Source: Chitinophaga pollutisoli (GTDB lineage: Bacteria; Bacteroidota; Bacteroidia; Chitinophagales; Chitinophagaceae). From it: a DNA stretch of 64,000 nucleotides. The stretch is from the NCBI RefSeq assembly GCF_038396755.1, contig NZ_CP149822.1, forward strand, positions 682,001-746,000. The letters run 5' to 3'. Positions 3,836 to 46,800 of the stretch are shown one piece after another; positions within the stretch are counted from its first letter, which is position 1, and every line of letters starts with the position of its first letter. The notes under the pieces are model-generated. The model had not been told where the DNA came from. It worked only from the letters and a program-made list of their open reading frames with translations, and made no database searches. The position numbers and the translations under genes were made by a program.

Positions 3836-3862
3836 TTAATCACCCATAAACATTTATCACAG

Positions 3863-4693: not shown

Positions 4694-4716
4694 ACAATCC
4701 TTACCATTTTTTAAAA

Positions 4717-14430: not shown

Positions 14431-14726
14431 GTTACCCCACCATCTGCGATACCGGGATGCTCGCCGGAGGGATGAACCGTAATTACGAATCTGACCACCT
14501 TGAAATCACAGACATTTTCTCCTTTGTTCCGGTAGATGAAAATTCGGAGATGAACGAAACGCTTTACAATGATATGGAAGCCATATGCGAAGATCGATTC
14601 ATCCGTTACAGCCCGGCGCATATAGTATGCTATGACGAGCCACAGCCCCGCCACCTCCACGACCCGGCATTTACCGCTACACTCTTTGCCCTGCTCAATG
14701 ATATTTCCGAACTCATCAATTTTTGA
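14427..14726 (+). CDS. PRTRC-associated small protein
   Basis: A 99-residue acidic protein starting MSYPTICDTGMLAGG, with its ATG overlapping the previous stop. The core HLEITDIFSFVPVDENSEMN and the end LFALLNDISELINF give an alpha/beta pattern. I do not recognise the family. The earlier in-frame ATG at 14349 would overlap the upstream gene by 80 bp and is less likely. The next gene begins 4 bp after its stop. Confidence 0.65.
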   Translation: MSYPTICDTGMLAGGMNRNYESDHLEITDIFSFVPVDENSEMNETLYNDMEAICEDRFIRYSPAHIVCYDEPQPRHLHDPAFTATLFALLNDISELINF

Positions 14727-14729
14727 TCT

Positions 14730-15443
14730 ATGGATAATTTACTTACCATGCTCGATATTACTTATGACCCGGTAAAAGTCTACGTGCTCATGCAACCCAA
14801 CACCTCCCACGTAGCTCCTTATGTGGAAGCCTACCGGGTTCATAACAGGAGGATGACAGCCGCCCACCCCCTCTCCCTCGATGAAGGACAACAACTGGCA
14901 GAAATGCTCAGTGGCGCTGCCAGTGTCGCATTCGGATGTTTTCAGCCGCAAGGCATTATCCCCGCCAATGTTCTGCGGACGGTCACAGGACGCGCCGGGT
15001 ACGCCATCTGGCACACGCCCGCACAAAAAATGCAGCTGCTATTTGATGAATGCCTCTACATACCCGAAGGCATCAGCGCTATTCCCCCGCTACTCTGGAA
15101 AGCCACCCGCACCCACTTGGAAATATTTGCCCTTTCCTCCGACCACCGCCCGGACCTGAACACGCCCCTGCTGCGCGCCCCCTTTTACAATACCAGCTCC
15201 GAAGGCCGGGTCTGCATGGGCAACGTCAGGATCGGAACCGATAACATCCCATGCTTGGAAGACTTTATCAGCTTATGGGAACAAGCATTTTTCAAATCTA
15301 CTTTCACCCATCTGGGCGAACTCACCAACGGCCCGATCAAAGGTGACCTCAATGCGCTCTGGCGGGAACTGATCGGCACAGGTAAAACCTTCCCGGTACG
15401 AGAACTCAAAAAATCTTACATCACTTTAAAATCCTTGTTATGA
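14730..15443 (+). CDS. PRTRC system protein B
   Basis: A 237-residue protein matching PRTRC protein B. It carries RMTAAHPLSLDEGQQLAEML, RTVTGRAGYAIWHTPAQKM and LRAPFYNTSSEGRVCMGNV. The ending, LTNGPIKGDLNALWRELIGT, is typical. It overlaps the ThiF gene by 4 bp (ATGA at 15440). Proteins B and ThiF are always neighbours in this cassette, which suggests that they act together. Confidence 0.88.
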   Translation: MDNLLTMLDITYDPVKVYVLMQPNTSHVAPYVEAYRVHNRRMTAAHPLSLDEGQQLAEMLSGAASVAFGCFQPQGIIPANVLRTVTGRAGYAIWHTPAQKMQLLFDECLYIPEGISAIPPLLWKATRTHLEIFALSSDHRPDLNTPLLRAPFYNTSSEGRVCMGNVRIGTDNIPCLEDFISLWEQAFFKSTFTHLGELTNGPIKGDLNALWRELIGTGKTFPVRELKKSYITLKSLL

Positions 15444-20856: not shown

Positions 20857-22230
20857 CTAATCGGAAATCTCTGGAAACTCTTCACCGTTGAAAAAGCGTT
20901 TTAGCAGATCTGGTGCCTTACTACGTAAAGACTCCTCGAATTCGGCGCCAGTCCATATTTGAGTATTCGCAATATTATTGTCCTTACAATATGCTCTTAT
21001 TTTATCCTGGGCAGTTTTACTTACCGTACCACCTGCAACGACAACATAATGATCTGGAATCTCCCCCTCCTTAACCAGCCGGTCGATATCTTTCTTAATT
21101 TTTGAAAATGGTAAATTCGGGTAGTTTTTGCACTGAAAACACCAGCTCTCCCCGTCCGCTTCTGCCCAGATGTCCCTGCCTCCCTCACCCCCGCTTTCGC
21201 CATACCACTTTAGCACTTTCGGATAATTAACCGTCCTTACGAGATAAGCAAACGTTAATCGCTCGAAGCCCCTACCTTGAAGATCGTAAAAATGAATTTT
21301 ATGCACCGTACTGCTAATTGACCTCGGATTATCAGCACTTGCATTCTTCAGCCTATCCAATTCTTCTTCCAGGAAACTGATATGATAGGCCAGTGCCCCT
21401 CCTCTGATAAGTTGATGTATAATACTGACATAAGCTTCTGTTCTCCTATCAAATGGCATGGCTGCATTGAGGGTGACATTATTTAACGTCACTATATCAA
21501 GGTCTTTCCATGTTATACTATTCCCATTTATAATCCAGGAATACCCGATTCTGCTATATTGACCAAACTCCAATGTCAATTGGTGTTGCCCTGTATGTAT
21601 CCAAAAATGGTGAGAACAACTAAATTTTTCATGCGCGTTGACCAATGTCGATATTCGCTTTTCAATCATCACACGTTTATTGGGTGCCAACCGTGACTGA
21701 TGTTGGTATTGTTGCATCAATTCTTCCCGGTTGCCGAACTTGTCAATCAATGCCCTAAAATCAATATATGTACGGAATTCCGCCATCTTTTTCGCACCAA
21801 GTAGAATATGGTGAATTTCAAACATAAAGTGTCGCAAATCCTCAAAAACTTTGATCTGATGTTTGATCTGATCTGTATACTTCACGGCAGGCATAATCAA
21901 CTTTCGCTGAAGGCCATTTATAACCTGCGTAACTATCGTATTGAAAGTTGTCACGAATTTCAATGGATCATCGGAGGTATTAATTTCACTTTCAACCCAT
22001 TTGCATGCCTCATCATAAAACAACTCCATTTTAGTATACGCATCCGTATCTCCTTCCACATACTCACCCACGCTAATTTGCTGGCCACCGAAAAGCGCCA
22101 GCCACTTATTTGTAAAATTCATGGCTTCCTCAGTACGTTTCAGCCTTTCCATAGCCTCCTCATATGTCATAGTGATGGTGCCATCACTTAGTTCAACGTA
22201 AATTTTCCCATCTTTCTCAGTCACATTCAT
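20857..22230 (-). CDS. PD-(D/E)XK restriction-endonuclease-like protein
   Basis: A 457-residue protein whose C-terminal 150 residues look like an Mrr/REase_cat-type nuclease. FERLTFAYLVRTVNYPK is the helix before the core. GESGGEGGRDIWAE (about residue 350) supplies the aspartate, and WCFQCKNY (about 365) the Q-x-K pair. The N-terminal 300 residues are helical and unrecognised (target sensing or DNA binding are possible), with a coiled stretch ALAYHISFLEEELDRL before the nuclease. It is 43 bp downstream of the TPR/GreAB-C gene. The pair looks like a nuclease-centred conflict system. Confidence 0.75.
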   Translation of the reverse strand: MNVTEKDGKIYVELSDGTITMTYEEAMERLKRTEEAMNFTNKWLALFGGQQISVGEYVEGDTDAYTKMELFYDEACKWVESEINTSDDPLKFVTTFNTIVTQVINGLQRKLIMPAVKYTDQIKHQIKVFEDLRHFMFEIHHILLGAKKMAEFRTYIDFRALIDKFGNREELMQQYQHQSRLAPNKRVMIEKRISTLVNAHEKFSCSHHFWIHTGQHQLTLEFGQYSRIGYSWIINGNSITWKDLDIVTLNNVTLNAAMPFDRRTEAYVSIIHQLIRGGALAYHISFLEEELDRLKNASADNPRSISSTVHKIHFYDLQGRGFERLTFAYLVRTVNYPKVLKWYGESGGEGGRDIWAEADGESWCFQCKNYPNLPFSKIKKDIDRLVKEGEIPDHYVVVAGGTVSKTAQDKIRAYCKDNNIANTQIWTGAEFEESLRSKAPDLLKRFFNGEEFPEISD

Positions 22231-22273
22231 AATAAGATTATAAAAGCAACCTTTTTTGGGGTTGCGTTATCAA

Positions 22274-25101
22274 TTAATTCTGATTGATCACATCCGTACT
22301 TCTGCTTTCACGAAAGGCCGCCTCATATCGAGAACTGATCTTCGAAATTGTGAAAAGCTTTCCATCCATCTCAATGACAGCACCGGCTTGCTTACCCATA
22401 AGCAACAAAGCTCTTTCTGATGAACTTGATATGGAATGCTGCAAGGTGGCTTTATCATCAATTACAACATTCATGACTGCACCTTTTTCATCTTTCAATT
22501 CAACTGCACAATAGTCGTCCACTACTGCTTGATCACCCGCTCTGAATCCACTTTCTATTACCCCAATAACAAAACGCTCATATGCTTTGCGATGCAACGG
22601 ATGTTGCGGGTTCTCGTTTCGGATTTCCAGGGCCAGTTCAAGTCCCCTCATGTGATGAAACCTTCCTGCACTCACTACTGCGATAAGCAACGCATTCATT
22701 CTATCCTCCACTGGCCAACGCTGATCGACAAATTCTTGCAATTTCCCCTGAATTTTATCCTGATCATTCGCGCGAAAATAGTAGGCCAACTCTTTCCCAT
22801 GAAAAAATGGATCTTTCGGAAAATACTTCATTGCATTTTTAGCCATAGTAAGTGCTTCTACATAATCACAGCCTTTTTCAATAGCTTCCAGCAGAAACGC
22901 CGTGCAGAAATAAATCGGATGGTTCGGATCATACAATTTTTCTGCAATTTCAACGGCATCAGCATGCCGTCCTACCCGCTGCAGACTAGGCAACAGATAT
23001 TCTAAGAGGCTATGCCATCGCTCCTTGTAACCAGGTTTATCCAACAGCGCGACCACTTCCCCATAATGTCCTAGCTTATAACAAAGCTCAATTACGAATT
23101 GATGAACAAAATTGGCAGGATTATCACCCAATGACTTGGCTGCCCGCGTAGCAAGTTCATGCGCTTTTTTTCATCGCCAACTTGTATAGCTAATTCTGCT
23201 GCACGATGAGCCATTTGTGGAATGTCAGGATACTGGTTGGCGGCATCCAATACAAACTGAAAAGCACCCTTTACGTCTCCGTTAACCATCATGGCCAGGG
23301 ATCGGAAGAATATTATTTTGCATGCTTCATCCTCCCCCTTTCCTGGAAGGCGCTCATCAAGTAATTTAAAAATAGCCTCCGAATCCTTTCTCTCCAATAA
23401 CCCATTAATTTCTAAGAAAAAAAGTTCTTTCTCTTGCACTTCATTTAACTCCAAATGTTGCCTTGCCTCTTCAATAAGTTTGATATGGATCATTCCCTTT
23501 TCCACCCCCAGCATCAACAAATGATGGTATATGATAAAATCCTTCCCATCATCCAAGGCAACTACAAAATCCGATTCTGCATTTTCCTTGTCTCCAAGCA
23601 TGTAGCGAACCACTCCCCGGTTGGCAGTAACGGCCCATCGGACCTCGCGCATGTCTGAATCCTTGTAAAAATCCCTTGCCTGGCTGAGATACCCTTCTGC
23701 AAGTTTTAACCGATCCCGAGTATCTTTTGAAATGTAATTCCCGTCTTTTATCTTATTTAACAACGCTGTTTTGGCATGTAGCAAAGCCATTCTTTCAATT
23801 TTCTCAGCCCAGGCCAACGTACCTTCCGGAATTGACGTTTGTTCCAATATTTGCAAAGCACGAACGATCTGTTCAGGCCCTTGCCTTGATAGCCACTCTG
23901 CAGCATTCACTGCAACCATGGGGTTGGAAATATCGGTCGATGCCAACACATCATCAAATTGTGCAATGGTGGCATCCTCAGGTAAATTCAGCAATCGAGC
24001 AACTACTGCCGAAGGTACAATTGGTGATATTTTTAGCACTTTGTCGATGTAGTGTTCCGATAATTCAGACTTACCTTGCAATGCATAACCCATGGCAGTC
24101 ACGCCTAAAGCATCTGCATCCAGCGGTAATAAATCGGCCAAAGAAATAAAAAGCGCTACAGCCTCATCATTTTGTTGCAATTGTAAATAAGCCTGACCAA
24201 GTGTGAAATTCACTTTATACCGCTGCTCCGGCGAAAAACGCTCCCACTTCCGGTCTTTAAGATCACTAAGCATGGCTATAGCCGCGTTATTATGCCTTTT
24301 TGCCAAAAGATTTAAAATAGGGCCCACATTGTCGTCAAAATCCTCCTGCGTCATCACAGCGCCCATCCCGGTTGACAACGCTAATGGCGCATGGGGTAAC
24401 AGCAAAGTGAATTTTTCTTCAATACGCTTCTGCCATTCCAGGTCTTGCGCCCGATCTAAAGACCGCAATCGGCGCAACTCCTCCGTATCACCCTTGATTG
24501 CATCGAGCTTATTTATCAAGTATTGCGTCTGCGGATCCATGCTTTCCAGAACGGTCTGCAGGAAGTAGAGAATCAATTTTTCCAAATCCTGTTGGATGGT
24601 GAGTTGAAGCTCAGCAAATTCGGGGTGAGCAGCTATATGTGCATATATATGTTGCAGGAGATCTTCGACGGTAGTACCTCCCCCGAAAGAATCCTCAAAA
24701 TGGCTCATTACCGCCTTATTTTCAAAAATCTTCACCACACCTGGATGCGTTATTGGTGACAGCTTTGCTAAGGCTTTATAATAGATATCTGTGAAATCTT
24801 TCATCTCAGCACCTAAGCCGATATTCTGAAAAAACTGGTGCGCTGAATAGCTTCTTTTGGTTATGAAGTCACGAACCGTCATGACCGCCGAACTGACCGG
24901 AGAAACGTTATTTACGGCAAATTCCCAACCAGACAATAGTATGTTTTCCAAATATTTATAATTTAATTTTTCTTCCAATTTAAAACCATGCATGATACAT
25001 TCTTGCATGCCGGTTGTGTACACGCCAACCTCACTACCCATCGTTACCCAATATACGAATATGCGGGAGCATGATGGCCCTTTCCCAATAATGTGGGTCA
25101 A
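22274..25101 (-). CDS. TPR protein with GreA/B-C-like C-terminus (frameshifted)
   Basis: Two overlapping frames form one protein of about 940 residues when one base is added to the T7 run at 23165-23171 (joined as GDEKKAHELATRAAKSLGD). The central 600 residues are TPR-like helix pairs, for example FTLGQAYLQLQQNDEAVALF and AVTANRGVVRYMLGDKENAE. The last 80 residues (VELKDEKGAVMNVVIDD, then LLMGKQAGAVIEMDG) resemble the GreA/GreB C-terminal fold. Known TPR-GreAB-C proteins are linked to PIN or REase effectors in bacterial conflict systems. The start is uncertain: 24993 (MHGFKLEEK) is more likely than 25101. Confidence 0.7.
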
Positions 25102-26852: not shown

Positions 26853-27239
26853 TCAACGCTTCTTCTTTCGTTTTTTGCCCCTTTTGCCTCTTCTGTTTCC
26901 TTCCGCAGATGCTGAAGACTTAAGGTTACCAGCAACTGTAAAAGCAGGTACAAAAGCATTACCCCTGATGAAATAATGAGAGGTACACGGCAATCGCCAG
27001 TTCCCAATCGATGGGTAGAGGGTTACCGTCTCACCATCGAAGATCACCTTCCAATCTTTGGGTGAAAACGGGGTAACAACCTCACTGCCGCATCCACAAG
27101 CACACAAGTGGACAGCTGTACCGTAATCAAGGGCAATATAGAGCACATCTTCATGGATCTGCTCCGGGATGGCATTTACGAACCTATGCTGTAGCGTCCG
27201 TGGCGTCCAGTTGAGCCGTGTTGATTGTAAAAATTGCAT
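26853..27239 (-). CDS. DUF6527 family protein
   Basis: A 128-residue protein with the DUF6527 pattern: LQHRFVNAIPEQIHEDVLYI, then HLCACGCGSEVVTPFSP, and GNWRLPCTSHYFIRGN near 80-95. The closely spaced cysteines and His look like a metal site. The last 25 residues are a very basic tail (RRGKRGKKRKKKR). It overlaps the E1 gene by 56 bp, which implies tight coupling. DUF6527 genes often accompany ThiF-type E1 and multiubiquitin genes. The function is unknown; a role as ligase or cofactor in Ubl transfer is speculation. Confidence 0.82.
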   Translation of the reverse strand: MQFLQSTRLNWTPRTLQHRFVNAIPEQIHEDVLYIALDYGTAVHLCACGCGSEVVTPFSPKDWKVIFDGETVTLYPSIGNWRLPCTSHYFIRGNAFVPAFTVAGNLKSSASAEGNRRGKRGKKRKKKR

Positions 27240-28359
27240 TGTGCTCTTGTATTAAATCTTGATAAAATCCAGACATCTTCTTCCACTTATGTACTGCCAG
27301 GAATGCATTCAGCATGTTCAGGTCGGCAATCTGGATGTTGGTTGTGTACAAATCATCCTCCGCATCCCGCAACGGGACCCTATGCGGAAGATGATCGGCC
27401 TTTGAAGCGGTGCCAGCCGTTATCCGTACCGCCCCAATCAGCTGATCTTCCACTACCTCCAAACCAATCCCACAGTCAACAAACGGGATTCCGTTAGCTA
27501 GTAAATACTTAATGATATAAGCCCGTGCGGCATTACTATCAATACACAGGAAAACGAAATCGAACGCAGCCAGACTATCCAGATTGTCTTCGAGGATACG
27601 ATGTGGATGAGCGAATATGTACTTATGCATATTTTCATACATCTGTTTAAAGTAGACAACTTTCGGTACGGCGGCGGACAGTTGCGCGATCGAGGGCGCT
27701 CCAGGAGCACGGAATGCGTTATGTTGCAAAAAAACATCCCCGTCGAATAGATGGATCTCCGATGCTGGTGCCTTTGCCACCAGGTCCAATACATAGCCTC
27801 CTGTACCGCCTAAGCCCACTATTGCAAGCTTTTGGCCGGCAAGCTTTCGGTTAATTATCCCGATGTTAGCCCGGATCGCATTCGTATCAGGGTACTGGAA
27901 AACAGAATCCTCCGCAGCCCCCTCCATTTTTACAAAAGTCCTTTCAGTAACGGTCGGATCGATGGACTTCGCCTGGCTGGCTATAATAGTTGCATACGTT
28001 GAAACCTTCTCATAATAATCCGCATATCCCGCAGCCGGCTTATTGGAAAAACTGTGGTTGGTAACAATCTCAGGGGTAAGCTGCTGGTTGCCGCTGGTAT
28101 GCTGAATTTGAAGAATCGGCGTTCCATCGGCATTGCAAGGGTATTCTCCGCAAAACTGAATGACATGGTTCTGTGGTCGCATCGTTTTGCCCGCATTTAC
28201 TGTCAAGGGACAAACAAGTTTGCCGTACAGTATATGGCGATGAGAATTAACATAGGGAATGTGGTGGATAACTAAGTATCCACCACTCACCTCAATCTGA
28301 TACCCTTCCTCCTGAAGGCGACGCAGGTCGTCATTATGATTTATCAGTACAGGTAACAT
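27184..28359 (-). CDS. ThiF family E1 with N-terminal DUF6791/E2-like domain
   Basis: A 391-residue enzyme expected to adenylate and transfer the neighbouring ubiquitin-like protein. Residues 1-130 resemble the DUF6791 module found before such E1s. They include VIHHIPYVNSHRHILYGKLV and a Cys/His-containing part (HVIQFCGEYPCNADGTP) that could act like an E2. Residues 160-360 are the E1 fold: KLAIVGLGGTGGYVLDLVAK, then LFDGDVFLQHNAFRAPG and FVDCGIGLEVVEDQLIG, whose Cys may be catalytic. It starts inside the end of the multiubiquitin gene (26-bp overlap). Confidence 0.88.
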   Translation of the reverse strand: MLPVLINHNDDLRRLQEEGYQIEVSGGYLVIHHIPYVNSHRHILYGKLVCPLTVNAGKTMRPQNHVIQFCGEYPCNADGTPILQIQHTSGNQQLTPEIVTNHSFSNKPAAGYADYYEKVSTYATIIASQAKSIDPTVTERTFVKMEGAAEDSVFQYPDTNAIRANIGIINRKLAGQKLAIVGLGGTGGYVLDLVAKAPASEIHLFDGDVFLQHNAFRAPGAPSIAQLSAAVPKVVYFKQMYENMHKYIFAHPHRILEDNLDSLAAFDFVFLCIDSNAARAYIIKYLLANGIPFVDCGIGLEVVEDQLIGAVRITAGTASKADHLPHRVPLRDAEDDLYTTNIQIADLNMLNAFLAVHKWKKMSGFYQDLIQEHNAIFTINTAQLDATDATA

Positions 28360-29014
28360 TGAAAATCATTTTGTTTTTAATGAAAACGATATCTCCTTTT
28401 ACCATCGTCCCTTCCGGGTTCTGATGAGGTCCGCGCTTGTAGGTGACCGTGTGAACCCTGGTTTGCGTATCGCAGGATTGGCCGAAAGCCAGTTGCACCA
28501 CTTCATCGTAGCTGATCTTGCGATCTTGCCAGGTCTTCTCACGGCCGTTAACGATGATCTTCCACTCCCGTTGTTTTTCTCTGGAAATGAATCGCTCGGC
28601 ACCCGGACGCGCCAGATCAATAACTGTTGTATCCTCAATAGCCTCATCTTCCCATGGTCCAGGAATTGATAAAAAGATGTCCTGAATTGGCGGAATCATG
28701 CCTTGTTTACGAATTTGTCTGCCTGTGATATACTGGCTGGAAGATTCAAAACGCTGGTCATTAATAAAGTAAGCCAACTTTTTGGGTACGTAAAAGTGTT
28801 CAATGTCAGGCCTGGCCAAGTTTACACTGTCCGATGGTGAGATTTGCTCGTCCTTCCAGGGTTCTTGAAGCGCCAGATACAATTCAACGTCAGGATCCAA
28901 GTTGGCCAGGTTGCGAAGTTGCTGGCCAGTAATGTACTGCTCTTTCCAGCTGTATTGCTTACCCTCTATAGTAAATTTAAGGGAAGCCTCATGATTTCTT
29001 TCTTGTAAATTCAT
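28334..29014 (-). CDS. Multiubiquitin domain protein
   Basis: A protein of about 226 residues built from three ubiquitin-like units in tandem (about 12-79, 80-149 and 150-226). Repeat signatures are YITGQQLRNLANLDPDVELY with DSVNLARPDIEHFYV, and YITGRQIRKQGMIPPIQDIF with TVIDLARPGAERFIS. The third unit ends KGDIVFIKNKMIFNV then TCTDKS. There is no C-terminal Gly-Gly, as in other multiubiquitin proteins. I take the ATG at 29014 (MNLQERNHEA); starts at 29041 or 29098 are possible. It heads a three-gene operon with E1 and DUF6527, divergent from the XRE regulator. Confidence 0.9.
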   Translation of the reverse strand: MNLQERNHEASLKFTIEGKQYSWKEQYITGQQLRNLANLDPDVELYLALQEPWKDEQISPSDSVNLARPDIEHFYVPKKLAYFINDQRFESSSQYITGRQIRKQGMIPPIQDIFLSIPGPWEDEAIEDTTVIDLARPGAERFISREKQREWKIIVNGREKTWQDRKISYDEVVQLAFGQSCDTQTRVHTVTYKRGPHQNPEGTMVKGDIVFIKNKMIFNVTCTDKS

Positions 29015-29211
29015 AATATTCAATTGTTTATATTCCCCCATTGGGCAGATACGGGGTGGGGTAAAAACCGGACCTGTGTAGCCTTCGTCTCTAAACAATT
29101 GAAATATTCTAAAGGAATAGTCCGTAATTTTGTGAAACGAAACAGCAGGGGCTGCTGAGGTGATAAGCCTTTAGCAGGTAGAAGTCGGCAAAACTTTAGA
29201 TCCCTGTTTCA

Positions 29212-29239
29212 GAGGTCGGGTGCTACAACATCCGACCTC
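29212..29239. repeat. Hairpin in the divergent promoter region
   Basis: GAGGTCGGGTG (29212-29222) pairs with CATCCGACCTC (29229-29239), with one G-U pair, around CTACAA. It lies in the untranslated leader of the minus-strand multiubiquitin operon and could be a leader structure or a protein-binding site. Confidence 0.5.
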
Positions 29240-29277
29240 CGTAGTAAATTATCAGCTATAATGTTGATCTGAGTGTA

Positions 29278-29318
29278 AAATTAGCAAATCTAATTTAAAT
29301 TAGCAAATAAATTAGATT
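29278..29318. promoter_or_regulatory. Probable operator for the XRE regulator
   Basis: Overlapping symmetry is visible. AATCTAATTT (29287-29296) and AAATTAGATT (29309-29318) form a perfect 10-bp inverted repeat with a 12-nt spacer. Within it lies the palindrome CTAATTTAAATTAG (29290-29303). AAATTAGCAAAT occurs twice, at 29278-29289 and 29297-29308. The cluster lies between the divergent Ubl operon and the XRE gene, where an autoregulator would bind. Confidence 0.6.
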
Positions 29319-29351
29319 CGCTTCGTTTACTTAATTTTATATTTAGATTAG

Positions 29352-29383
29352 TTTGGTGAATTGAGAATTAATACCTAGCTTTG
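29352..29383 (+). promoter_or_regulatory. Bacteroidota-type promoter of the XRE gene
   Basis: TTTG at 29352-29355 and TAGCTTTG at 29376-29383 match the -33 and -7 elements of Bacteroidota primary sigma promoters (TTTG, then TAnnTTTG) with a 20-nt spacer. The start codon at 29405 lies just downstream, giving a short leader. Confidence 0.75.
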
Positions 29384-29404
29384 TGCGTCACAAAACGCAA
29401 CACA

Positions 29405-29746
29405 ATGGATTCTTTAGGCAAAACTCTTAAAGCTGCAAGGGAGCTAGCCTCACTGACACTTCGAGAAGTTGAGGAACTCACCGCAATCTCCAATGCTTAC
29501 CTCAGCCAGGTAGAAAACGATAAGATTAAGAAACCTTCTGCCTCCGTATTATACAAGCTTTCCCGCGCTTATAAAGTCCCTTTGGAAAGGTTTTTGGCCG
29601 CAGCCGGAATAATTGAAGATTATAAACCACACGAAGTAAGCTTCTTCACAGAATCTAAAATTCTTTCTGCTGAAAACATTACCGAAAAAGAAGAAGAAGA
29701 GTTGATGAAGTACCTCCGATATTTAAGGTATCAAAGTACCCTTTGA
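29405..29746 (+). CDS. XRE family transcriptional regulator
   Basis: A 113-residue protein with a classical HTH_3 domain at residues 4-60: LGKTLKAARELASLTLREVE, then AISNAYLSQVENDKIKKPSA and LSRAYKVPLERFL. A short acidic C-terminal helix follows (NITEKEEEELMKYLRYLRY). The ATG at 29405 is used rather than an upstream TTG, since it fits the promoter at 29352-29383. It is probably an autoregulator of itself and the divergent Ubl operon, acting on the palindromes at 29278-29318. The kinase gene starts 67 bp downstream. Confidence 0.9.
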   Translation: MDSLGKTLKAARELASLTLREVEELTAISNAYLSQVENDKIKKPSASVLYKLSRAYKVPLERFLAAAGIIEDYKPHEVSFFTESKILSAENITEKEEEELMKYLRYLRYQSTL

Positions 29747-29813
29747 TATGTCCCCCATCCACCATTTTAATTTAAGACCAGACCATTTTTGAATTTTAAA
29801 AAACCTATAGTTA

Positions 29814-30857
29814 ATGCAGAATCCCGCAGAACATCTCAAAGGATTGACTTTAGAGGGTGATTGGTATGTGTCGGAAAAAATTGAACATGGTGATGATCAT
29901 TCAGGAGGTAACTTCTCGATTTGTTACCGCGTAACTAAAAATGGGCATACGGCATTTTTAAAAGCAATCGATGTATCAAAAGCGATGGGAGGCCCAGACC
30001 CAACAAGGGGGCTCCAGACACTGATGAATGCCTATGAATATGAAAAGGAGTTATGTACGACTTGCGATGGCAGGAGGATGGACCGTGTTGTGCGCATTTT
30101 AGCAGCAGGCAGTACTTATCCTTTAAAACATCTACCCGTTTTCGTACCGTATCTCATATTTGAATTGGCATCGACTACGCTTCGGGAACATGTCCTGGAG
30201 ACAACTCATAACATGGATAATGCTACGTTAATGCGTTCCTTGCATAATGTAGCCGTGGCCATTTCTCAACTACATAGTGCCGGGATTGTTCATCAGGATA
30301 TCAAAGGTTCCAATGTCCTTCTTTTTAGCCCAGATGGCGAAAGCAAGGTTGCTGATTTGGGCCGGGCAGAAATGATCTCTAAAGAGTCTATCTATTTCCA
30401 CTTTCCGATTGCGGGAGATCCTGACTATGCGCCACCGGAACAAAGGCTTAATTATATTAGTGATAAATGGGATGTTCGGAGAAGATCGACAGATTTATAC
30501 CTATTGGGAAGCTTAATTTGTTTCTATTACACGCAATTCCCTATGACGGCACTCTATGAAATACATCTTGCCCCTGAATTTAAAAAAGGGGCTTGGAAAG
30601 GAAAATTCGAACAAGTCCTACCCGTGCTCAAAGATGCATTTCAGGAAATACTGGAGTTTTTAGAAGAACAATTATCTGAAACCTTCTCTGAAAAAGATAT
30701 CATACAAAATATTGTGAAGCTGGTAAAGTTTCTGTGCGACCCTGACCCATCCAAAAGAGGACACCCGGATAGTCTTCCTATTGATCAATACGCTATGGAA
30801 AGATTCATCACAAGCTTTGACGTTCTCGCAAACAGGTTCGAGAGTAAACTTTTGTAG
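29814..30857 (+). CDS. Hanks-type serine/threonine protein kinase
   Basis: A 347-residue cytoplasmic kinase with no membrane helix. The ATP lysine is in HTAFLKAIDVSKAMGG (about residue 51). The catalytic loop is GIVHQDIKGSNVLLF with the Asp near 162. DFG is replaced by DLG (KVADLGRAEM). A P+1 motif follows in GDPDYAPPEQRLNY. The last 100 residues hold alpha-helices of the C-lobe with FLCDPDPSKRGHPD, the usual end. The glycine-rich loop is atypical (HSGGNFSICYRV). It is followed one base later by the helical-repeat gene, so the two almost certainly work together. Confidence 0.92.
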   Translation: MQNPAEHLKGLTLEGDWYVSEKIEHGDDHSGGNFSICYRVTKNGHTAFLKAIDVSKAMGGPDPTRGLQTLMNAYEYEKELCTTCDGRRMDRVVRILAAGSTYPLKHLPVFVPYLIFELASTTLREHVLETTHNMDNATLMRSLHNVAVAISQLHSAGIVHQDIKGSNVLLFSPDGESKVADLGRAEMISKESIYFHFPIAGDPDYAPPEQRLNYISDKWDVRRRSTDLYLLGSLICFYYTQFPMTALYEIHLAPEFKKGAWKGKFEQVLPVLKDAFQEILEFLEEQLSETFSEKDIIQNIVKLVKFLCDPDPSKRGHPDSLPIDQYAMERFITSFDVLANRFESKLL

Positions 30858-30858
30858 T

Positions 30859-32403
30859 ATGGCTATTTATTTCGAACAAACTAACAGATTGATTATCCCG
30901 CGGTGGAGAAAATTCAATCCAAAATGCATTACAGCAGAACACAAACTGCTGACCCCGGAAATTGATATAAAGTCAGAACCAGCATCATTGCTCTCTTTTA
31001 ACAAAAAAGAAAAAGATTGGCACGTTCATGGTTCGGTGGGCCACGCCTGGGAATTAGTGCACTCGGCTTACATTAATCAGGAATTCTCCAAAGCAAAGAA
31101 TGCTGCCGCCTTCTTGAAAGACAATCTAAGTCAAATATCTCCCGCACTGCGTAAAGTAATCAATGAAATTCTGGGAGAAGATATCAGTGAACCAAATTCG
31201 GTAGCCCCCGATATTATACCGATTAATAAACTGACGGAGATAACACGCAGAGAAATAAAGTCAACTAAAAGAAAAATTTCTTACTATTTAAGAAATGAAT
31301 TTCAATGGCTGGAACTAAGCCGCCTCTACTCCATCATTGGTGAACTTGAAAAAGCCAAACAATGTATTAACATTGCCATATACTTTTCGAATAACCAGAA
31401 TCGATATTTCCTAAGAAGCGCTTCCCGTTTTTTCTATCATATAGGAAACTTTGAGCAAGCGCAAAGCATCATCCGTCGCTCCCCTCACCTTAAATCAGAT
31501 CCATGGCTTTTATCAACAGACATATCATATTCCAACAAGATGGAACGGCATGCTGTAAACGCAAAACGTGGTCGTGAAATCGTAGATTCTAAAAACTTCA
31601 GCAACGAATCAATTACTGAACTTGCGGGTGTTTTAGGCACCATGGAACTAAAAAATGACAGTGTAAAGAATGCAAGAAAACTGACCAAACAATCTTTGCT
31701 TGCACCCAATGATAATAGCTTGGCACAGGCGGAATGGATTGCTCATGAAATCAGTGAAATCTCCATTGAACCATGGCTTAATAAAATGGAATTAGGCTTT
31801 GAAGCTAGAACGCTAGAATTCCTGCACAACAGAAACTATGCAAAGTGCCTTCACGAATCCTTATTGTGGGTAATGGACCAACCTTTCTCAAAACGAGCCT
31901 GTCATTTTGTTTCTTATTTATGCACTGGTTTGACAGAGAACTATGAAACAGCAATCGAAGTTGGGGAATTAGGCGCAAAGACTAACTGGGACTACTTCCC
32001 CATTATTAATAATCTCACATTCGCTCATATTTCCGCAGGGAATCTAACCCGCGCTAAAGAACTACTCGAACATATGACAACTATGTCGATGTCGAGCAGA
32101 GAACAGTGCTTTGCTCTTGCCACTGTAGGATATTACTACTATCGTTCAAAGGAATATGTCGCAGGGAGAGAATCTTATCAAAAGGCCATAGATTTAGCCG
32201 CCAAAAATAATTATGATGATCTTAAAAAATTGGCCACAGCAAATTTACTACGCGAAGGCTATTTAGCCGGTGAATCACAATATGTAATAGTAATGGCTGC
32301 GTTGGAAAAAATTTCAAAAGATGGAGAAGATCTCAATTTAGAGGAGCAAATAAAGCATATTATCACTTCTGTTAAAAAAGAACACGAAGTAAAAAATGTA
32401 TAG
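30859..32403 (+). CDS. TPR-like helical repeat protein next to kinase
   Basis: A 514-residue protein. I start it at 30859 (MAIYFEQTNRLIIPRWRKF), immediately after the kinase stop; a longer upstream reading would overlap the kinase. Residues 150-514 are helix pairs of TPR type, such as LYSIIGELEKAKQCINIAIY, RFFYHIGNFEQAQSIIRR and ALATVGYYYYRSKEYVAGR. There is no enzyme motif. A likely role is substrate or sensor partner of the kinase. It ends the operon, with a terminator at 32501-32523. Confidence 0.82.
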   Translation: MAIYFEQTNRLIIPRWRKFNPKCITAEHKLLTPEIDIKSEPASLLSFNKKEKDWHVHGSVGHAWELVHSAYINQEFSKAKNAAAFLKDNLSQISPALRKVINEILGEDISEPNSVAPDIIPINKLTEITRREIKSTKRKISYYLRNEFQWLELSRLYSIIGELEKAKQCINIAIYFSNNQNRYFLRSASRFFYHIGNFEQAQSIIRRSPHLKSDPWLLSTDISYSNKMERHAVNAKRGREIVDSKNFSNESITELAGVLGTMELKNDSVKNARKLTKQSLLAPNDNSLAQAEWIAHEISEISIEPWLNKMELGFEARTLEFLHNRNYAKCLHESLLWVMDQPFSKRACHFVSYLCTGLTENYETAIEVGELGAKTNWDYFPIINNLTFAHISAGNLTRAKELLEHMTTMSMSSREQCFALATVGYYYYRSKEYVAGRESYQKAIDLAAKNNYDDLKKLATANLLREGYLAGESQYVIVMAALEKISKDGEDLNLEEQIKHIITSVKKEHEVKNV

Positions 32404-35978: not shown

Positions 35979-38467
35979 CTATTCGCCCGGTTCCTGCTTT
36001 GAGGAAGTAAGCCCTATCCAGAACTCCAGGTAACCATATGCCTGAAGGTAGTCCGGAAGTTCGCTTGAGGGCCGTGTAACGGGGTTCTTTCTCACACCCC
36101 AGAAGTGATCTGGCGAATCTTTGAGCATCTGTAAAGAACGCTCGAACACGTTCGATGATCTGACTTCTATATGAGATTCGGTATTGTGACTTGCCCTCCA
36201 CGCGACTGCATGCGATTCCTTCCAGGCTGCTCCGCTACCACCAACCACAATAATGCGCAATCTTGTAACTGCTCCGAATAACTTCTTCCTAAGTTCCGAA
36301 TTGTTGGTAATCTCCGTTCGCCAGCTTTGTACTATATCAATCGATCGCGACAATGATTGCGACGGGTATTTCCCTTCCATTACCGCCATAGAAGGTTCAG
36401 TGATTTTTACAAGTACCCACTCAGGCCCATCCGAATTATCGTTAAGCCATACAAAGTCAATTGTCTCGTCTGGAGATATTCTAACATCTCTGAAAACCGG
36501 CTGCTGAAAATCCTTTCTAGACGCCAGTTCTATAAAAAGAAATGGATTATCCTTTAAAACTGCTTTCAACTCCACTGTGTCATTGGAGACAATTGCATGT
36601 CTGAGCGCTTTTTCGACACTTTCGCTGTCCCATGGAACCAAATCTTTATCCTGCTGTAATGCTGCGCCGGTCATGGAACCATCGGATAAAAATGGTTTAA
36701 TTTGTTTAGGTTCGAGCTTCTTTTTTACAGAAACCACTTCGCGAAACTGATAGTCTGGAACATCATCAAGCTTTCGCTGTAATTGATCCATCCCCCTTCC
36801 CTTGAAAGATCTATGATCTCGCGGTCCTGCAGTGCATTAGGTATGATAATATCACTATATCCTTCCAAAGCAACCAGAATATATTTTTTAGGGTATTTAG
36901 GCAAATCAGAGATGATATATCGAAACTCTGTCCCAACACCGCCCTCGAAATTGTCAGCACGGGTTTTGTATTTTTTGCTTAATACGATAATTACCTTATC
37001 GGCCCGAGTAAGTGTCCGGTACATCATCTCTTTGAAATGTGTCGCAGATTCTTGCTGGCTTAGCAGACGGTCGACTACTGCATTATAGCCAAGGCCACGC
37101 AGATGGTTGGTGAAAGATATTACACGTTCGTTGTGCTCATCATCTTCCCATGCATAGGTAACAAATACCAGTAACGGACTATCCTCCTTTACCGATAAAA
37201 CAGGTTCATTTTGATCCTCCATATCTGTTGGAGCTTGAATTATTGAATGAGATGCGACGTTTCCTTTCGTAGCATTTATAAACTCGCGAAAATATTCGAT
37301 TGTCAAGAACTCGCCATATCCCTCACGGTCGGCGGGATGCCACTGGTAAGTCACCTCAAGCCAACTATTAAATTCATTGTTGGTTTTTACCATTTGTACT
37401 GCCAGAGATTGATGGTCCTTTGACTTTGAAACAATATCTTGTTCGACGGCTGCTAAATAGAGATCATTAAATTCACTGAATCGTTTAAATGGTTCCTCTG
37501 ACTGAAATTCAGTTTGCTTTGCTAGTACATCGACTGGAATACCGGTCCTGAAAGAGGTATTGAAAAGCGACTCCAAATATCGAAAGCGCTTATGTGTTTC
37601 GGCGTTTGTCTTACAGAACTCCTTTTCCGGTGTTGCTTCAGGATAGGCCAAGAATTCTTTACAAATGGCCTTTAATGTCCTGTCAGCGTCAGGATCAAGA
37701 TTATCGACCGGGTAGCCTCCGTTCCACTTTAAAATGAATCCTAACAAAACATGCTTTTGGAGATCACTAAAACGCAGCGCACCAAGGTGATCAAGGACTA
37801 GCTGAGTATTGATGCGGTTACTGGCAACGAATTCACGCTGCGCTTTCAGCAGGTTCATAAATGGCAATAGCTCGAATGCCCTTGTACCTGGACCGTCGGT
37901 AAAGTACTCAATTGTCTCTTTCACTAGCCTCTGATTACGAATATTATTTGGGTTGGTGAAGAATGTCAGGTCGTGATTGGTTGAATGTATTGTGTCTGAT
38001 GACATGTGATTTTGTGTTTGGTTTTGGTGGCGCTCAACTTGCAAACTACTTTTGAGTTTATCGAGCATCGCTTTGTACTCGGGTGTATATTCAGACCGGC
38101 ACAAATGGTCAGTTTCAAAGCTTTCCATTCCCTTTAAAAACACCTGAACATCCCCATTTTCAAGCAGCTTAGTTACAATATTGGTATGCAACCACACTTG
38201 AATATTGTGAAGTCGGGTTTGATACCCTGTCAATTTGAGATCATTGCGGTCGATAACCCAATCTCCGTCTTCGATTACCAGGTCGTTATCGCCTGGTTGA
38301 CCAAATCCGTCAAGCAAATAGGTTATATCTTTATATAAGATTTCATCAAAATACTTATTTTCAGCACGAAGCGGCTCCAAAACTTTCTCAATGAATTCGT
38401 CAAGTGCCAGCAGTTCAGTGTTTCGAATTTCCTCGATAATATCTATATATTCTCTACGTTTAAGCAT
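35979..38467 (-). CDS. SEFIR/TIR-domain protein with DUF4263-like end (frameshifted)
   Basis: Two frames join into about 830 residues if one base is added to the C5 run at 36792-36796 (through LSREGGMDQLQRK). Residues 1-420 are helical and unassigned. A SEFIR domain follows (LLVFVTYAWEDDEHNERV near 430, then RADKVIIVLSKKYKTRAD and GVGTEFRYIISDLPK). The last 270 residues resemble the Shedu/DUF4263 module (ETIDFVWLNDNSDGPEWVLV, then SLSRSIDIVQSWRTEI). The usual E-x-K pair reads VKI-T, so nuclease activity is doubtful. The start at 38467 (MLKRREYIDII) is chosen over 38569. A defence role is inferred. Confidence 0.65.
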
Positions 38468-38806
38468 AAACCGTTGACTTGCTACGAATATAACAATTAT
38501 TCCGAAGAGGGCATTTCCCGAAGAACTAAACCCTTTTAATAGGCATTGTCGGAAAAAGGTAAGAAACAACTTGGGGCAGATTCCCGCTGATTAGAAATGG
38601 GAACCCTGAACTGCTTGGGAGTGTATTTTCTGAATACACCTCTGCAATTGACTTATTCTGCTTTTGTTTTTGAAATCGATTATTTCCGCCTCATGGTGAA
38701 AAGTGGCAACTCCCGCCTGTAGCCGACAGCATCTTTGTTCTGTCCTTTATCGGCAATACTACTAAATCAAAGTAACTGCCACTATTTATTCACCAACGCC
38801 AGAAAT
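38468..38806. other. Divergent intergenic region
   Basis: About 340 bp between the SEFIR gene and the lipoprotein gene, which diverge here, so both promoters should lie in it. I could not identify a pair of consensus elements with correct spacing. No gene or obvious repeat is seen. Confidence 0.4.
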
Positions 38807-40883: not shown

Positions 40884-43800
40884 TTAATACTTGTAAGCTA
40901 TTTTTGGCTTCACCCATTTATAATCCGTCATATCACCAATCATATAATACAAACTGGTTCTGGTGCCCGCCCTAATCAATCTGGTACTTTCGATCCCTCT
41001 ATCAAACTCGTCTTTGGCATAGTGGGTTCGTAAAGGTAGTCCATGCTCTGCGCGAATCTGATTTTCAACATGGGAAGCGGATAGTTCCACATTCCTAATT
41101 GCCGGCTCAGCTCCCAGTGCTGGAATCCATATACCAAAATCTGCTGTGAACTCCCACAAATCCCGAATATGCGCCAGTTCATGCGCCAGGGAAATAAACG
41201 TTGGTGTAATTGCATTACCATCCGAATTCGGCACACCCGGACCCTTTTCGGGATTCCACAGAACATATAATCCAACAGAGGCCTCCGCAGCATTCTCAGG
41301 GCCCTGACATAGCTCTACTGAGCGTTGATTATTGGCCACATCCTCTACCAGCTTTTTGCCAACAGGCCCTCCGGTTCGTATACATTCCAAAGCTAGGGTT
41401 GCCTGCTGGATCATTACATTATCACCTTCATATCTATTACCTTGTGCGTCAACGAAACCATAATTGCCATTCTCATCCGCCTGGTAGGTATACCGCGAAT
41501 CCACCATGACGTCATTACCGTTTTCGTCTTTTACAACCGTCGTTACGACGATGATGATGCTGTCGCCATTGACATCGACCATATTAATTGGATTGTTGGC
41601 CGCATACTGGTAAGGTGACAATGCTTCGTATTTGTCCGCAAAACGGTCTTGGGTAAAGAATCTGCCTATTTGATTATCATACATCCGGGCACCGAAGTCC
41701 AGCCACTCCAAACCCGCACCATCTGAAAACTCCCTGCGCTGTTCTTCTTTACCGCTGAATTTGACTTTGTTCTCCAACGCGGCTGCAGCCATGGTACTAA
41801 TACCTGCCATCGGCAACCCATATGGATAATAATGAGCCTCCTGCAAAAGCGGACCGCGGGTATGGGTAACTTGCAGATTGTCAAAATAGACATCTACATT
41901 AGGCGTTTCATTAGACACCCAAATATACAGATAACCACTTTTAGTAATCTCTCGTCCAGTAAAGAGATGGAGTTTCAGTTCCAAATCATCGCCGACGGCT
42001 TCAAATCCGGAGTTCTTGCCATTGTTTGTAATCACCGGTTTAAACTGCTCATCCAAAAGCAAATAATTTACATATGCTTTCGGTTTTGTCGGTGCATATC
42101 CACCATCACGATTTCCAAGGAAGGAAAGCATGCCTGGATCAAACGTGCCGTTGATTAACTGACCTCCTACAATTTTGCCAGCAGAAACACCTGGCACACC
42201 GGCAGCAAGTGCAGCCACAAGCGATGGTAGCGGACTAATTGGAGCAGAAGGTGTAGTGCCATTGAGCTTATAATAGCTATTGCAGCGGAGGTTGAATTTA
42301 TCACCGGCCATCACCTTTAAGAGGATGGAAGGGCCAATCTTTTGGCCATCGCCTCTGAGCTTTGCTACCTTATCATTGGGTGTCGTATAGTTATCGGCGG
42401 GATACCCCGCAGGCTTTGTCGATCTGGTTGCCGGCAAATTATTGTAATACATCTCCTCGATATCATCCTGAGCATCTTCCATACTGGCGTTTACATAAGC
42501 ATCCGTTTGCTGCTGATCCGTTAATATCAATCGGACATTACCGAGGTGGTCCTTTAAGAAATAATCCCATATAAGGGTCGCGCCTTTGTATCGGGCGCGA
42601 CCTTCCTCATGAACAAATGAATAGAGCGAATCCGCGTAATCATCCGGAAGCGGTGAAGCGTGCGCACTTGAAACATATGTACAACCATCAAGATAAGTCT
42701 CCGTGATCGTTTTAACAGGAGTCACTGTACTATCGACAATAATTTTTCTCAGTTTGTTTCCAGCAGCATCATATACAAATGTCACGGTCCCTTTTCCAGG
42801 AACTTTTATGACCGATGGCAAATTGAGGTGATTGTAACTGATAAGACCCAGATCCTTATTCTTGTCTGTAGTCATATTGCCATTCACATCATAACTATAA
42901 TCTGTTGCCGCCCCTGTTTTACCTCCTCCAAGCGAAGCCATATAAAGGTTTGAGCTGCGGAAGTCACCGAGGCGGGTATCAATATCATTTTCTTGATCCA
43001 ACACACTTTTCAAACGGTTTGAGCTATCAAAATAAGTATAAGAAAGTGAGTCAATAACTCGGCTGCCGCCAGGCTTCCATCCAGACTGAAGCATAGCCGT
43101 TATATTGCCATTCACATCAAAAGATGCGGCACGCATAGAAAAATCCAAACCTGCCGATGTATTATAAGCGGTGCCATTCAACTGCGTGAAACTTGCACTG
43201 ATTAATCGATTTGCCCGGTCGTATCGATAATCGAACTTTCGTGTCTGATCGTCGCCACTACTCTTCCAGGTAATTCCAGCCACGTTTCCATTGAACTGCT
43301 TCACACCGAAAACATTCGTATTTCCATTAATTTGTAAATTATCTTTATCATAACCGATCTCGTATCCAAACCAATTTGTCGTACTGGCCGTATCTTGCAG
43401 ATATGCTTTATTGGCACCGGTGAGCCAACCACGAATATTGTATCCATATTGCATCACTTCCATTGGACCACTACCCGCACTATTTGTTCCAATTTTACGC
43501 TGAGCTACTTCACCAAGAGCATTGTAGGAAATTTCAGATATGGTTTTCATCCCTGTAAAACTTAATCCCTTTTCCACCTTTACTATTCGATTTAGATCAT
43601 CATAGGTGAACTTCGTACATACCGGCAGATTCTTCGGGTTCGGTGCAGCCTTGACTGAACGCTCAACCTTTCTCAGCACATCGCCAGAAAAGTTGTATTG
43701 AATCGATGAGATACTTACAGCTCCTGAAATGTTCTTTGTTTGTGTTTGAATCAATCGTGAAAGATCATCATAATAATTCACCGTGACCAAATAGTCAGAA

Positions 43801-46800
43801 ACCGACCCTAAAACTTTCGTCTTCACATATGTTATTAAGTCTGTGGTCTGCTTGCTCTGCGTCCAGGCAGTGGCAAACTCCGGACTGGTATTGAGTGAAC
43901 CGGTAAAGAATGACGTGGGATCGGAGGTATTAGCAGTCGAACTGAGCCCTGCTGGTAATCCGGCATAGTCATCATAGTGGTATTGCACGAGTTCTTCGAC
44001 ACCACTTAAATTGGGATATGCGGTACTGGTAGCTGCCTGTGTCGCATGATACTCCCGTGTCTGGTTATTGGTAAACAAGCCGGAGGAAATCGCTCTATTA
44101 TGATTATCATAACTTACATACGCCCATTTCACAGGAGTTTCTGAGCGCTGCATGGCGTCCTGGCTTAGCACCATTCTGTTACGCGCATCATATACAAAAA
44201 GTATTTCACCTGCTCCGGGACTTTTTCTTCGAATCACCCGGCTCCTGCCATCATATTCATACCGGAAACACTGTTCATTAAGTACAGTTGACTTGTTCAG
44301 CAGCCAATTACTACGAATTAAATCCACACCTTTAGGTTGCAAAATACACCGCAGGTTTTCCATGACGTCGTATATAAAATATGTACAAATCCAACCGTCA
44401 TATCCTTTTCCAGCTCCGCTATCGGGATCTGCTGTAAGTTGCACTTTCTTTAGAATAACTTTGTTTGATTTATTCTTAAACTCAATAACCTGGGCGCCAT
44501 TCTCATCGATTGTAATAGTCTTATAAAGGGTCCCTTTGGCGTAAGTGCCAGAAACGCTGTATGTTCCAAAACTATTGGTAACATTAGTTACTGTCCAACG
44601 TTTGACATCATCTATTGCTGTATTGGTAAGAGAGCGAAATACAACTGCCCGGTCACTTCCCACCCAATTCGTACCTGCGGAGGCAATCTTTTCCAATTTT
44701 TCAGTTGGAGATGCCTCATATCCACTCATACCATAGAAATGGGTTTCACCCGGGTATTGGGCTGAGTTAAAAACAACCTGTTGCGCTATGGCGTTTCTTT
44801 TCAGCAAACCATCAGAAATATGTGTGTTTCCACCCGTATTATTGGCAGCAAAAGGCAAATGCTTATAAGTTTCACGCCCCATCCCATCATAGTAATTGAC
44901 GGTTACCATATCAACCGCCGAGCCGCCGGTAGTTAATGATCCCTGACGCATGACCTTTTGCATCTGTCTCCCCAGGGCATCGACGTAGGTGGTTGTCATT
45001 TTAGCTTCCCGAAGAGGCTTGGCATTAATATTCCCGGAATTCTGTTCAGGAGCGCTCATCTCCCACGTCCGCGCATAGTTTACCTTATAGGATCCTGCCA
45101 CGGCTGAAGGTGCTGCCACTATTGGCTGCTGAATGGATATACGGATCGGCGCGCTTGCAGCTATCTCTAAATCTGAGGTTACGGACCTTTTGTACCATGT
45201 GGGAGAAGTGAGCGCCGGAGGCGTAAAATCGCGAGAAGTGGCGCCGCTTATAGTAAACCAATCTGAACCGTCCAATGAATACAACCACTGGTATTGATAA
45301 GAGCCACTCCCCCTTCGGCGGGATTTATTCCGATTACCCCGGGTGAAGTGCCAGTAGCAATGACTTTGTTGCCAGGAATAATAGTTCCCGCAACCAGTTG
45401 GTTCAATACTGAAATTTTCCAAACATTTGAAAAAGCGACAGAAACGGCAGTTACTTTCCTTCTGAAGAAAGTAGTTACAGTAAGACCAGGAGCATGATAA
45501 TCCTGATTTGTTGCCGCGACAATATTGGTCCAATTTAAGCTATCAGATGATCGTTGCCACTGATAGGATATCGGGCCACTTCCTCCAGAAGCAACAGTTC
45601 CGCTCAAATAAGACGCATCATTATAATTTTCAGGGAACGTGGCTCCGGAGATAGTGCCTGCATGCAATTGTGGGATTACTGTCACCACGCTGGCATTGCT
45701 AAATACTGCGGTTGAACCATTGCTGGAAACCGATCTGCGAAAATGTGTGGTTGCAGACAAGGCGCCAGGTGTATAATTATTACCCGTGGCTCCGGACACA
45801 GCGCTCCATGAAGAGCCATTAGGTGATTGCTGCCATTGATAGTCAAAGGATCCATTTCCTCCTGTTGGCTGAGTACCGGTGAGTTGGCCAGGGGACATAT
45901 TGTAACTCACAGATATTGTGGAAGGTGAAATAGTGCCTGGCTGAACCTGCGGCAAAACTGTAACTGTACAGGTGTTTGTCTCAATTGCCGTGGCTCCATT
46001 ACTGGTTACGCTTCTTTTATAGTAAGTCGAGGCCGTCAGATTTCCAGGCGTATAATTGATAGCTGTTGCCCCTGAGATCAGCGTCCAGTTTGTGCCATTG
46101 GCAGATTGATGCCATTGATAGCTGAAAGTGCCGTTGCCGCCGGAGGGTATTGTACCGGTGATCTGACCTGGCGAAGTCCCGTAGTTAATCGTTACGGTAG
46201 CTGGGGATATCGATCCGGGCTGTATCTGTGGCAGTACAGTTACTGTACTCACGTTGCTCTCCACGGCGGTGGATCCGTTGCTGGTGACTGCCCGCTTGTA
46301 ATAGGTGGTAGCTGTCAGATTCCCCGGAGTATAATGAATCGCGGTCGCCCCTGAAATCGGTGACCAACTTGTGCCATTGGCCGATTGATGCCATTGATAG
46401 CTGAAAGTGCCGTTGCCGCCACTAGGCGACGTGCCTGTGATTTGACCCGGCGAAGTACCGTAGTTGATAGTAACGGCAGTTGGGGATACCGATCCGGGCT
46501 GCACCTGCGGCAGCACTGTGATATACGCTGAGTTGCTGAATTCAGTAGCAGATCCACTGACCGCTGCACGCCGGAAATAAGTAGACTGTGTAAGTAATCC
46601 AGGCGTATAATGTTGATTGGTAGCACCACTGATGCCAGTCCATGTACTGTTATCTGAAGACTTCTGCCAATAATACGTGTATCCTCCAACACCACCGCTG
46701 GGTAAGGTGCCTGTTAACTGCCCTTGGCTCGTATTGTAATTAATGGTCGCCGAGGTTGGAGAAATCGAGCCGGCTACAAGGGGCGAAGCAATAGTTACTA

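Follow-up and report, generated by a model that had tools for sequence, protein, structure and literature searches.

A multiubiquitin operon divergent from an XRE-kinase-TPR operon in Chitinophaga pollutisoli: a possible kinase-based controller of a ubiquitin-like pathway

Introduction

Does a protein kinase control the ubiquitin-like (Ubl) pathway beside which it is encoded, or do the two only share a neighbourhood? The question is raised by a locus of Chitinophaga pollutisoli, in a stretch of 64,000 nucleotides that was analysed whole and is called here the window (contig NZ_CP149822.1, positions 682,001 to 746,000). In this locus an operon for a multiubiquitin protein, an E1-like enzyme and a DUF6527 protein lies divergent from an operon for an XRE regulator, a Hanks-type Ser/Thr kinase and a TPR protein. 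Judged from their sequences, the two halves are separately known modules whose combination is conserved within one lineage. Most likely the kinase and its TPR partner help to control the Ubl operon; only slightly less likely, they make up a module of their own under shared regulation.

Operons of this Ubl type that lack a JAB protease were described in 2006 by Iyer, Burroughs and Aravind (PMC1779556). In the polyUbl type 6e of that work, a protein of one to three tandem Ubl repeats is encoded with an E1 that has JAB, or in a subset an unrelated domain, at its N-terminus, and with a small metal-binding protein; the operons also include an inactive E2/RWD-like domain and are sporadic and mobile (PMC1779556). 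The literature that we searched, the main Bub papers aside, yielded nothing on triggers or targets of the JAB-less operons.

Results

The genome of the host is a single contig of 6.08 Mb. On the minus strand of the window (26853-29014), the genes encoding the multiubiquitin protein (28334-29014; Pfam Multi_ubiq 6.4e-36, in three stretches), a DUF6791-ThiF protein (27184-28359; DUF6791 1.1e-58, ThiF 1.6e-12), referred to below as the E1, and the DUF6527 protein (26853-27239; 3.4e-23) overlap one another, and are called here the trio. On the plus strand (29405-32403) lie the genes encoding a CapH-like XRE repressor (29405-29746; HTH_3 8.7e-12, PADLOC HTH_VI 3.8e-12 and capH 1.5e-10), the kinase (29814-30857; Pkinase, PF00069, 2e-15, and PADLOC PDC-M71A 2.2e-113) and the TPR-repeat protein (30859-32403; PADLOC PDC-M71B 8.7e-144, the Pfam TPR matches being weak and under the curated cut-offs). 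The probable starts are ATG 29405 for the XRE, ATG 30859 for the TPR protein and ATG 29014 for the Ubl protein, which gives 226 amino acids as in its database copy. A single base separates the kinase and TPR genes, and 67 bp separate the XRE and kinase genes; the Ubl gene shares 26 nucleotides with the E1 gene, and a start codon is at exactly that spot in all 35 loci checked. The gap between the operons (29015-29404) is exactly 390 bp. The first-pass annotation, made from the letters of this DNA, had described these genes with their order, strands and overlaps, and a divergent region of 390 bp with palindromes and a consensus promoter; the positions of the open reading frames (ORFs), the Pfam matches and the elements of the gap described below agree with it.

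The divergent six-gene layout recurs in two other genomes, G822, taken as Chitinophaga sp. S165 (hereafter S165) and of the same genus as the host, and G649, taken as Ca. Pseudobacter hemicellulosilyticus (hereafter Pseudobacter), where one extra gene is present. Protein identities are 43-62%, and the flanks of the three genomes are largely different; among the window flanking genes compared, only an SduA-like one recurs. In Pseudobacter an SduA-like gene (53% over 154 amino acids) stands directly beside the TPR gene. Further pairs of E1 and kinase were found on contigs of 9,277 and 52,462 bases, the assignment to the same contig being inferred from equal size only; a Ubl protein is listed for the contig of 9,277 bases.

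In a kinase tree of 86 rows, the five linked kinases fall into one clade of 12 rows with support 100/100, and the seven stand-alone kinases included are all outside it. The five linked E1s likewise fall into one clade of 13 rows in a quick E1 tree of 85 rows (Shimodaira-Hasegawa-like approximate likelihood-ratio test, SH-aLRT, 99); in both clades the context is known for the linked five. In both trees Pseudobacter is more distant from the window and S165 than these two are from each other; the E1 tree gives support 99 for placing Pseudobacter next to them, the kinase tree only 95/74. Because the layout recurs and the linked kinases and E1s are each in one small clade, the association of kinase and Ubl genes appears to be old and inherited, and as far as seen it is confined to one lineage.

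The frequency of the pairing depends on the sample. Among 394 genomes of the Chitinophagaceae, the E1 is present in 17 and the kinase in five, and both genomes that hold the two have them adjacent (hypergeometric P(X>=2) 0.016). Among 395 genomes of the phylum, Multi_ubiq is present in 22, the kinase in two and both in one, the host itself. Four of the 79 genomes of the genus have the kinase: besides the host, S165 has it adjacent to Multi_ubiq, G813 has a broken kinase, 0.56 Mb away from its Multi_ubiq, and G826 has no Multi_ubiq. The kinase-TPR pair is present and Multi_ubiq wholly missing also in G395 and G471. At 38 trio loci, some of them truncated by contig ends, a pair of the M71 type was found in three, two of these located through the kinase search; the 35 loci without such a kinase argue against a general pairing. 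Thus, the coupling of Ubl and kinase/TPR genes that had been suggested from the letters stands for one lineage but not in general, and the pair also lives without Ubl genes. Chance neighbourhood had been expected to show as relatives in which the Ubl operon always occurs without the pair, and in S165 and Pseudobacter the two are found together. At one other polyUbl trio (L045) a weak and distinct kinase-like ORF (13995-14819; 8.7e-10 to the kinase profile) lies about 4 kb away.

What usually occupies the side of the trio where the kinase stands? At 17 of the 38 loci a gene of the M78 family (ImmA/IrrE, CapP-family) lies no more than 7 kb from the E1, in 15 cases on the opposite strand, and therefore we regard this side as a controller slot. 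In G683 an XRE gene and a CapP-like protease gene (HETAH) are divergent from the trio, as CapH and CapP are in L139. In Pseudobacter the extra gene is CapP-like (capP 2.5e-24, HEVGH) and stands between the XRE (capH 1.5e-11) and the kinase and TPR genes. The window and S165 have XRE, kinase and TPR genes with no CapP between. The controllers thus form a series, with CapH-CapP in G683 and L139, CapH-CapP-kinase-TPR in Pseudobacter and CapH-kinase-TPR in the window and S165. Since the XRE of G683, which is 56% identical to that of the window, sits with CapP, and since Pseudobacter has all four genes, the XREs of the window and S165 belong with a CapH-type controller whose protease was lost or never present.

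Other trio loci have a sigma-like gene nearby, and in Adhaeribacter a WYL protein. Directly upstream of the trio of L037, a weak STAS-like (DUF4325) and HTH protein (3574-5144) has a CapS-like layout, with no PADLOC match at 1e-5. In four genomes (L040 10581-14132, L138 3310-7032, L140 4107-7584 and L141 3661-7123), an AAA ATPase and subtilase pair is encoded immediately 5' of the trio and in its orientation, and could be a protease partner of Ubl-marked targets.

The kinase has the residues K50, D162, K164, N167, D181 and G183, presumably catalytic, which are invariant across 22 aligned sequences. With its TPR partner it is already known as the PADLOC defence candidate PDC-M71, a term that does not occur in the papers listed for PDC-M71 or PDC-M.

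Is there a site in the gap through which one regulator could act on both operons? Each operon is preceded by an element of the form TTTG-N20 followed by a -7 box, which we take to be the Bacteroidota-type promoter by consensus. That of the XRE operon, TTTG-N20-TAGCTTTG (29352-29383, plus strand), has perfect boxes in the window and in S165, where a promoter of like type, TTTG-N20-TACCTTTG, is at the equivalent spot before the XRE. The promoter-like element of the Ubl operon, TTTG-N20-TAATTTTA (29276-29307, minus strand), has one mismatch to the -7 consensus and identical boxes and spacing in S165. A palindrome of 32 bp with 11-bp arms, seen in the window at 29287-29318, covers the -33 box of this element and is a possible XRE operator; a single regulator for both halves would fit it.

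The gap also holds a hairpin (29212-29239, plus strand), possibly of a small RNA directed away from the Ubl gene. Its inner 16-mer is identical in S165, and the outer stem has three compensatory pair changes by eye. The 16-mer occurs once in the host genome, at the locus, and in S165 as one exact copy, at the locus, and in two more places with one mismatch; the backwards control gave no match. The inner 13-mer was found in eight of the 79 genomes of the genus (nine places) and its backwards control equally or more often, which is chance level outside the window and S165. Complete pairing of the hairpin is possible on the plus strand alone. The 146-nt region folds more stably there than shuffled sequences do (z -3.5 and -4.3), and to a lesser degree this also holds for the minus strand (z -2.1 and -2.9). 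An Rfam scan of the gap gave only sub-threshold eukaryotic or staphylococcal matches. Structured stretches between divergent operons are seen at 29130-29275 of the window, at 8985-9130 of L075 and at 11298-11642 of L074, and Pseudobacter has a terminator-like hairpin at about the equivalent position. When 18 Ubl upstream spacers were scanned for terminators, five had one, where 1.8 were expected, each time on the strand that leads away from the Ubl gene; the opposite strand had none in any spacer. The five (L035, L039, L049, L074 and L087, the first two from one genome) have T-runs, and no terminator was found in the spacers of the window or S165. That the hairpin region is a small RNA is possible, but is not established by these sequence features.

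How complete is the pathway that would be controlled? The Ubl protein has three tandem Ubl domains, a relative in the PDB (9cd2, 6.9e-38) and a C-terminus that reads ...TCTDKS; it lacks the Gly-Gly end, as the first-pass annotation had noted. Ser is the last residue at all 35 loci and in every one of the 120 homologues listed, two sets that overlap; by these sequences the Ser tail is a family trait of polyUbl proteins and not peculiar to the window locus. The tail also has an invariant Thr and Ser. Neither the JAB family nor an E2 family matched among the 17 window ORFs scanned against Pfam, and the remaining genome was not searched for JAB. The absence of a JAB/MPN deubiquitinase noted from the letters thus holds for these ORFs, and that of a separate E2 holds at the level of families, but the DUF6791 domain itself models as an E2-like fold, with BubB as nearest structure. 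The predicted structure thus makes the N-terminal domain of the E1-like adenylating enzyme probably E2-like.

The residues of the adenylation site are present in the E1, as read from its sequence. An E1 lacking a conserved cysteine was ruled out, as position 75 is Cys in 98% and position 272 in 92% of 64 aligned E1s. C75 is doubtful in our judgement as the universal catalytic cysteine because this position is His in the kinase-linked E1 of Pseudobacter. The DUF6527 gene was found in all 38 trio loci, and its product is predicted to bind zinc through C-x3-C-x34-C-x2-H.

Other genes of the window recall defence systems. An SduA (Shedu-like) gene overlaps the gene of a SEFIR/TIR protein at 35979-38569 (PADLOC SduA 1.9e-57, bSEFIR 2.6e-30), and at 20857-25101 a restriction-like PDC-M58A protein (3.4e-9) adjoins two TPR-type ORFs, of which one weakly matches a NACHT N-terminal helical domain. 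At 40884-45533, an RHS-repeat protein with DUF6443 and a C-terminal Peptidase_M91 domain has a polymorphic-toxin-like architecture.

Discussion

The trio resembles polyUbl type 6e in its tandem Ubl protein of three stretches, its JAB-less E1 and its small protein that is predicted to bind metal, the alternative N-terminal domain of the E1 being taken here as DUF6791, with its E2-like model. The passages of PMC1779556 examined on these operons have no divergent XRE-kinase-TPR operon, and print the metal-binding signature as C-x3-C-x35-38-H-x2-C; in the DUF6527 protein the last Cys/His pair is reversed, with 37 residues to the His. In the Bub pathway, of which Citrobacter BubA, BubB and BubCD have PDB entries, the E1 is of like type, but the window E1 aligns to BubCD over the E1 half only, the domain preceding this half seems different, and the controller here is an XRE with a Hanks kinase and a TPR protein. 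The Bil system shares a tandem-domain Ubl protein and an E1, as far as the parts consulted of PMC11354881 describe it; the window differs in that its Ubl protein has three domains where that of Bil has two and ends in Ser where that of Bil ends in Gly, and in that JAB and a separate E2 gene are missing.

The controller can also be compared with known ones. As in CapH+CapP systems, a CapH-like repressor is beside and divergent from the operon, although no CapP (M78) gene is next to it. The kinase and TPR genes are adjacent and in the order of PDC-M71, but in the window a CapH-like XRE gene precedes them and a polyUbl operon diverges from them. CapK+CapS is a published case in which a kinase has the repressor of a Ubl-type (Bub) operon as its substrate (PMC13373217). 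With a repressor beside a Ubl-type operon, a kinase that acted on this repressor would follow the same logic with other parts.

We therefore favour, tentatively and at a little under even confidence, the reading that this is a polyUbl operon with a rebuilt controller operon, in which the kinase-TPR pair takes part in control. Placed in the controller slot, the pair may do the job of CapP. The absence of CapP beside the XRE, a single evolutionary event, suggests the repressor rather than the Ubl enzymes as the target of the kinase. Around the gene content, layout, CapH likeness, absence of CapP and Ser tail that are read from the DNA, we infer the following steps. The XRE would bind the palindrome on the Ubl promoter and hold the operon low; phage infection, DNA damage or another trigger would be sensed by the TPR protein or relayed by it to the kinase; and the kinase would phosphorylate the XRE or a partner of it, by which the Ubl operon would be turned on. 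The E1 half would then adenylate the third Ubl domain at its C-terminal carboxylate, and the Ubl would be steered to targets by the E2-like half together with the DUF6527 zinc protein. A JAB protease would be dispensable because the tail is already mature. The system is probably antiviral or a stress response. A bolder version is unlikely as a whole: the Hanks kinase and its TPR partner would have replaced CapP as the switch of CapH, forming a fourth "controller of adjacent pathways", phosphorylation would turn on a Ser-ended Ubl pathway that lacks a deubiquitinase and whose E1 bears the E2-like domain, and the hairpin RNA would maybe be a further part.

Several observations weigh against control by the kinase. 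The PADLOC HTH_VI scores of the window and S165 XREs beat their capH scores. As these two genomes are sisters relative to Pseudobacter, the absence of CapP is therefore one event, either a loss or a gain in Pseudobacter. The host has other M78 genes, one at 4.50 Mb (5.1e-15) and a weak one at 1.47 Mb, about 3.8 Mb and 0.7 Mb from the locus respectively, that could act in trans. Among the 120 kinases listed, none is on a contig equal in size to that of one close E1 (P0007, 5.26 Mb). Compared with CapK+CapS, the kinase is a PF00069 Hanks kinase and not GHKL, and the repressor an HTH_3 XRE and not STAS-wHTH. Moreover, the pair is on plasmids of Deinococcus, Arthrobacter and Rhizobium with no Ubl genes within the 4-10 kb read per side, and in G240 (L059 4942-14154) it is set within a type I restriction operon that lacks CapH, flanked by HsdS and HsdR. 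Because the pair is found in G240 without CapH and alone on three plasmids, its general role cannot be the relief of CapH.

These last occurrences speak also for the strongest alternative, a second immune module that is merely in the XRE operon, co-expressed but with its own targets, for instance as a growth-arresting or phage-sensing kinase. It is in keeping with the listing of the pair in PADLOC as a stand-alone defence candidate, and with Pseudobacter, which keeps CapP beside the pair, so that the repressor already has a switch. By itself, however, it leaves unexplained the absence of CapP in the window and S165, as well as the confinement of the linked kinases and E1s to one small clade each, and we consider it a real but somewhat doubtful possibility.

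Alternatively, as in the second option raised by the first-pass annotation, the kinase might gate conjugation directly, by phosphorylating the Ubl protein, the E1 or the DUF6527 protein. The long co-inheritance with the E1 and the invariant Thr and Ser in the Ubl tail would agree with this, but the Ser tail is equally present without the kinase (35 of 35 loci, only three of them with it), and we find direct gating improbable. Two unrelated systems that met by chance in a defence island, our initial reading from the halves found alone in the phylum sample and on plasmids, and one to which the SduA, bSEFIR and PDC-M58A genes of the window and the separated, broken copy in G813 would be suited, is the least probable of all, given the divergent layout that recurs adjacent in three genomes with largely different flanks, the two contigs matched by size and the adjacency in both family genomes that hold E1 and kinase.

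If control of the Ubl operon by the kinase-TPR pair is true, phosphorylation would replace proteolysis as the on-switch, and a kinase module found where relatives have a repressor-cutting protease would offer a test case that can be cloned. Protein phosphorylation and ubiquitin-like modification would then be linked in bacteria, and the PDC-M71 pair would be a module that attaches to differing immune operons, a polyUbl operon here and type I restriction in G240. For the polyUbl family, the C-terminal Ser raises the question of how its E1 works without the usual Gly end.

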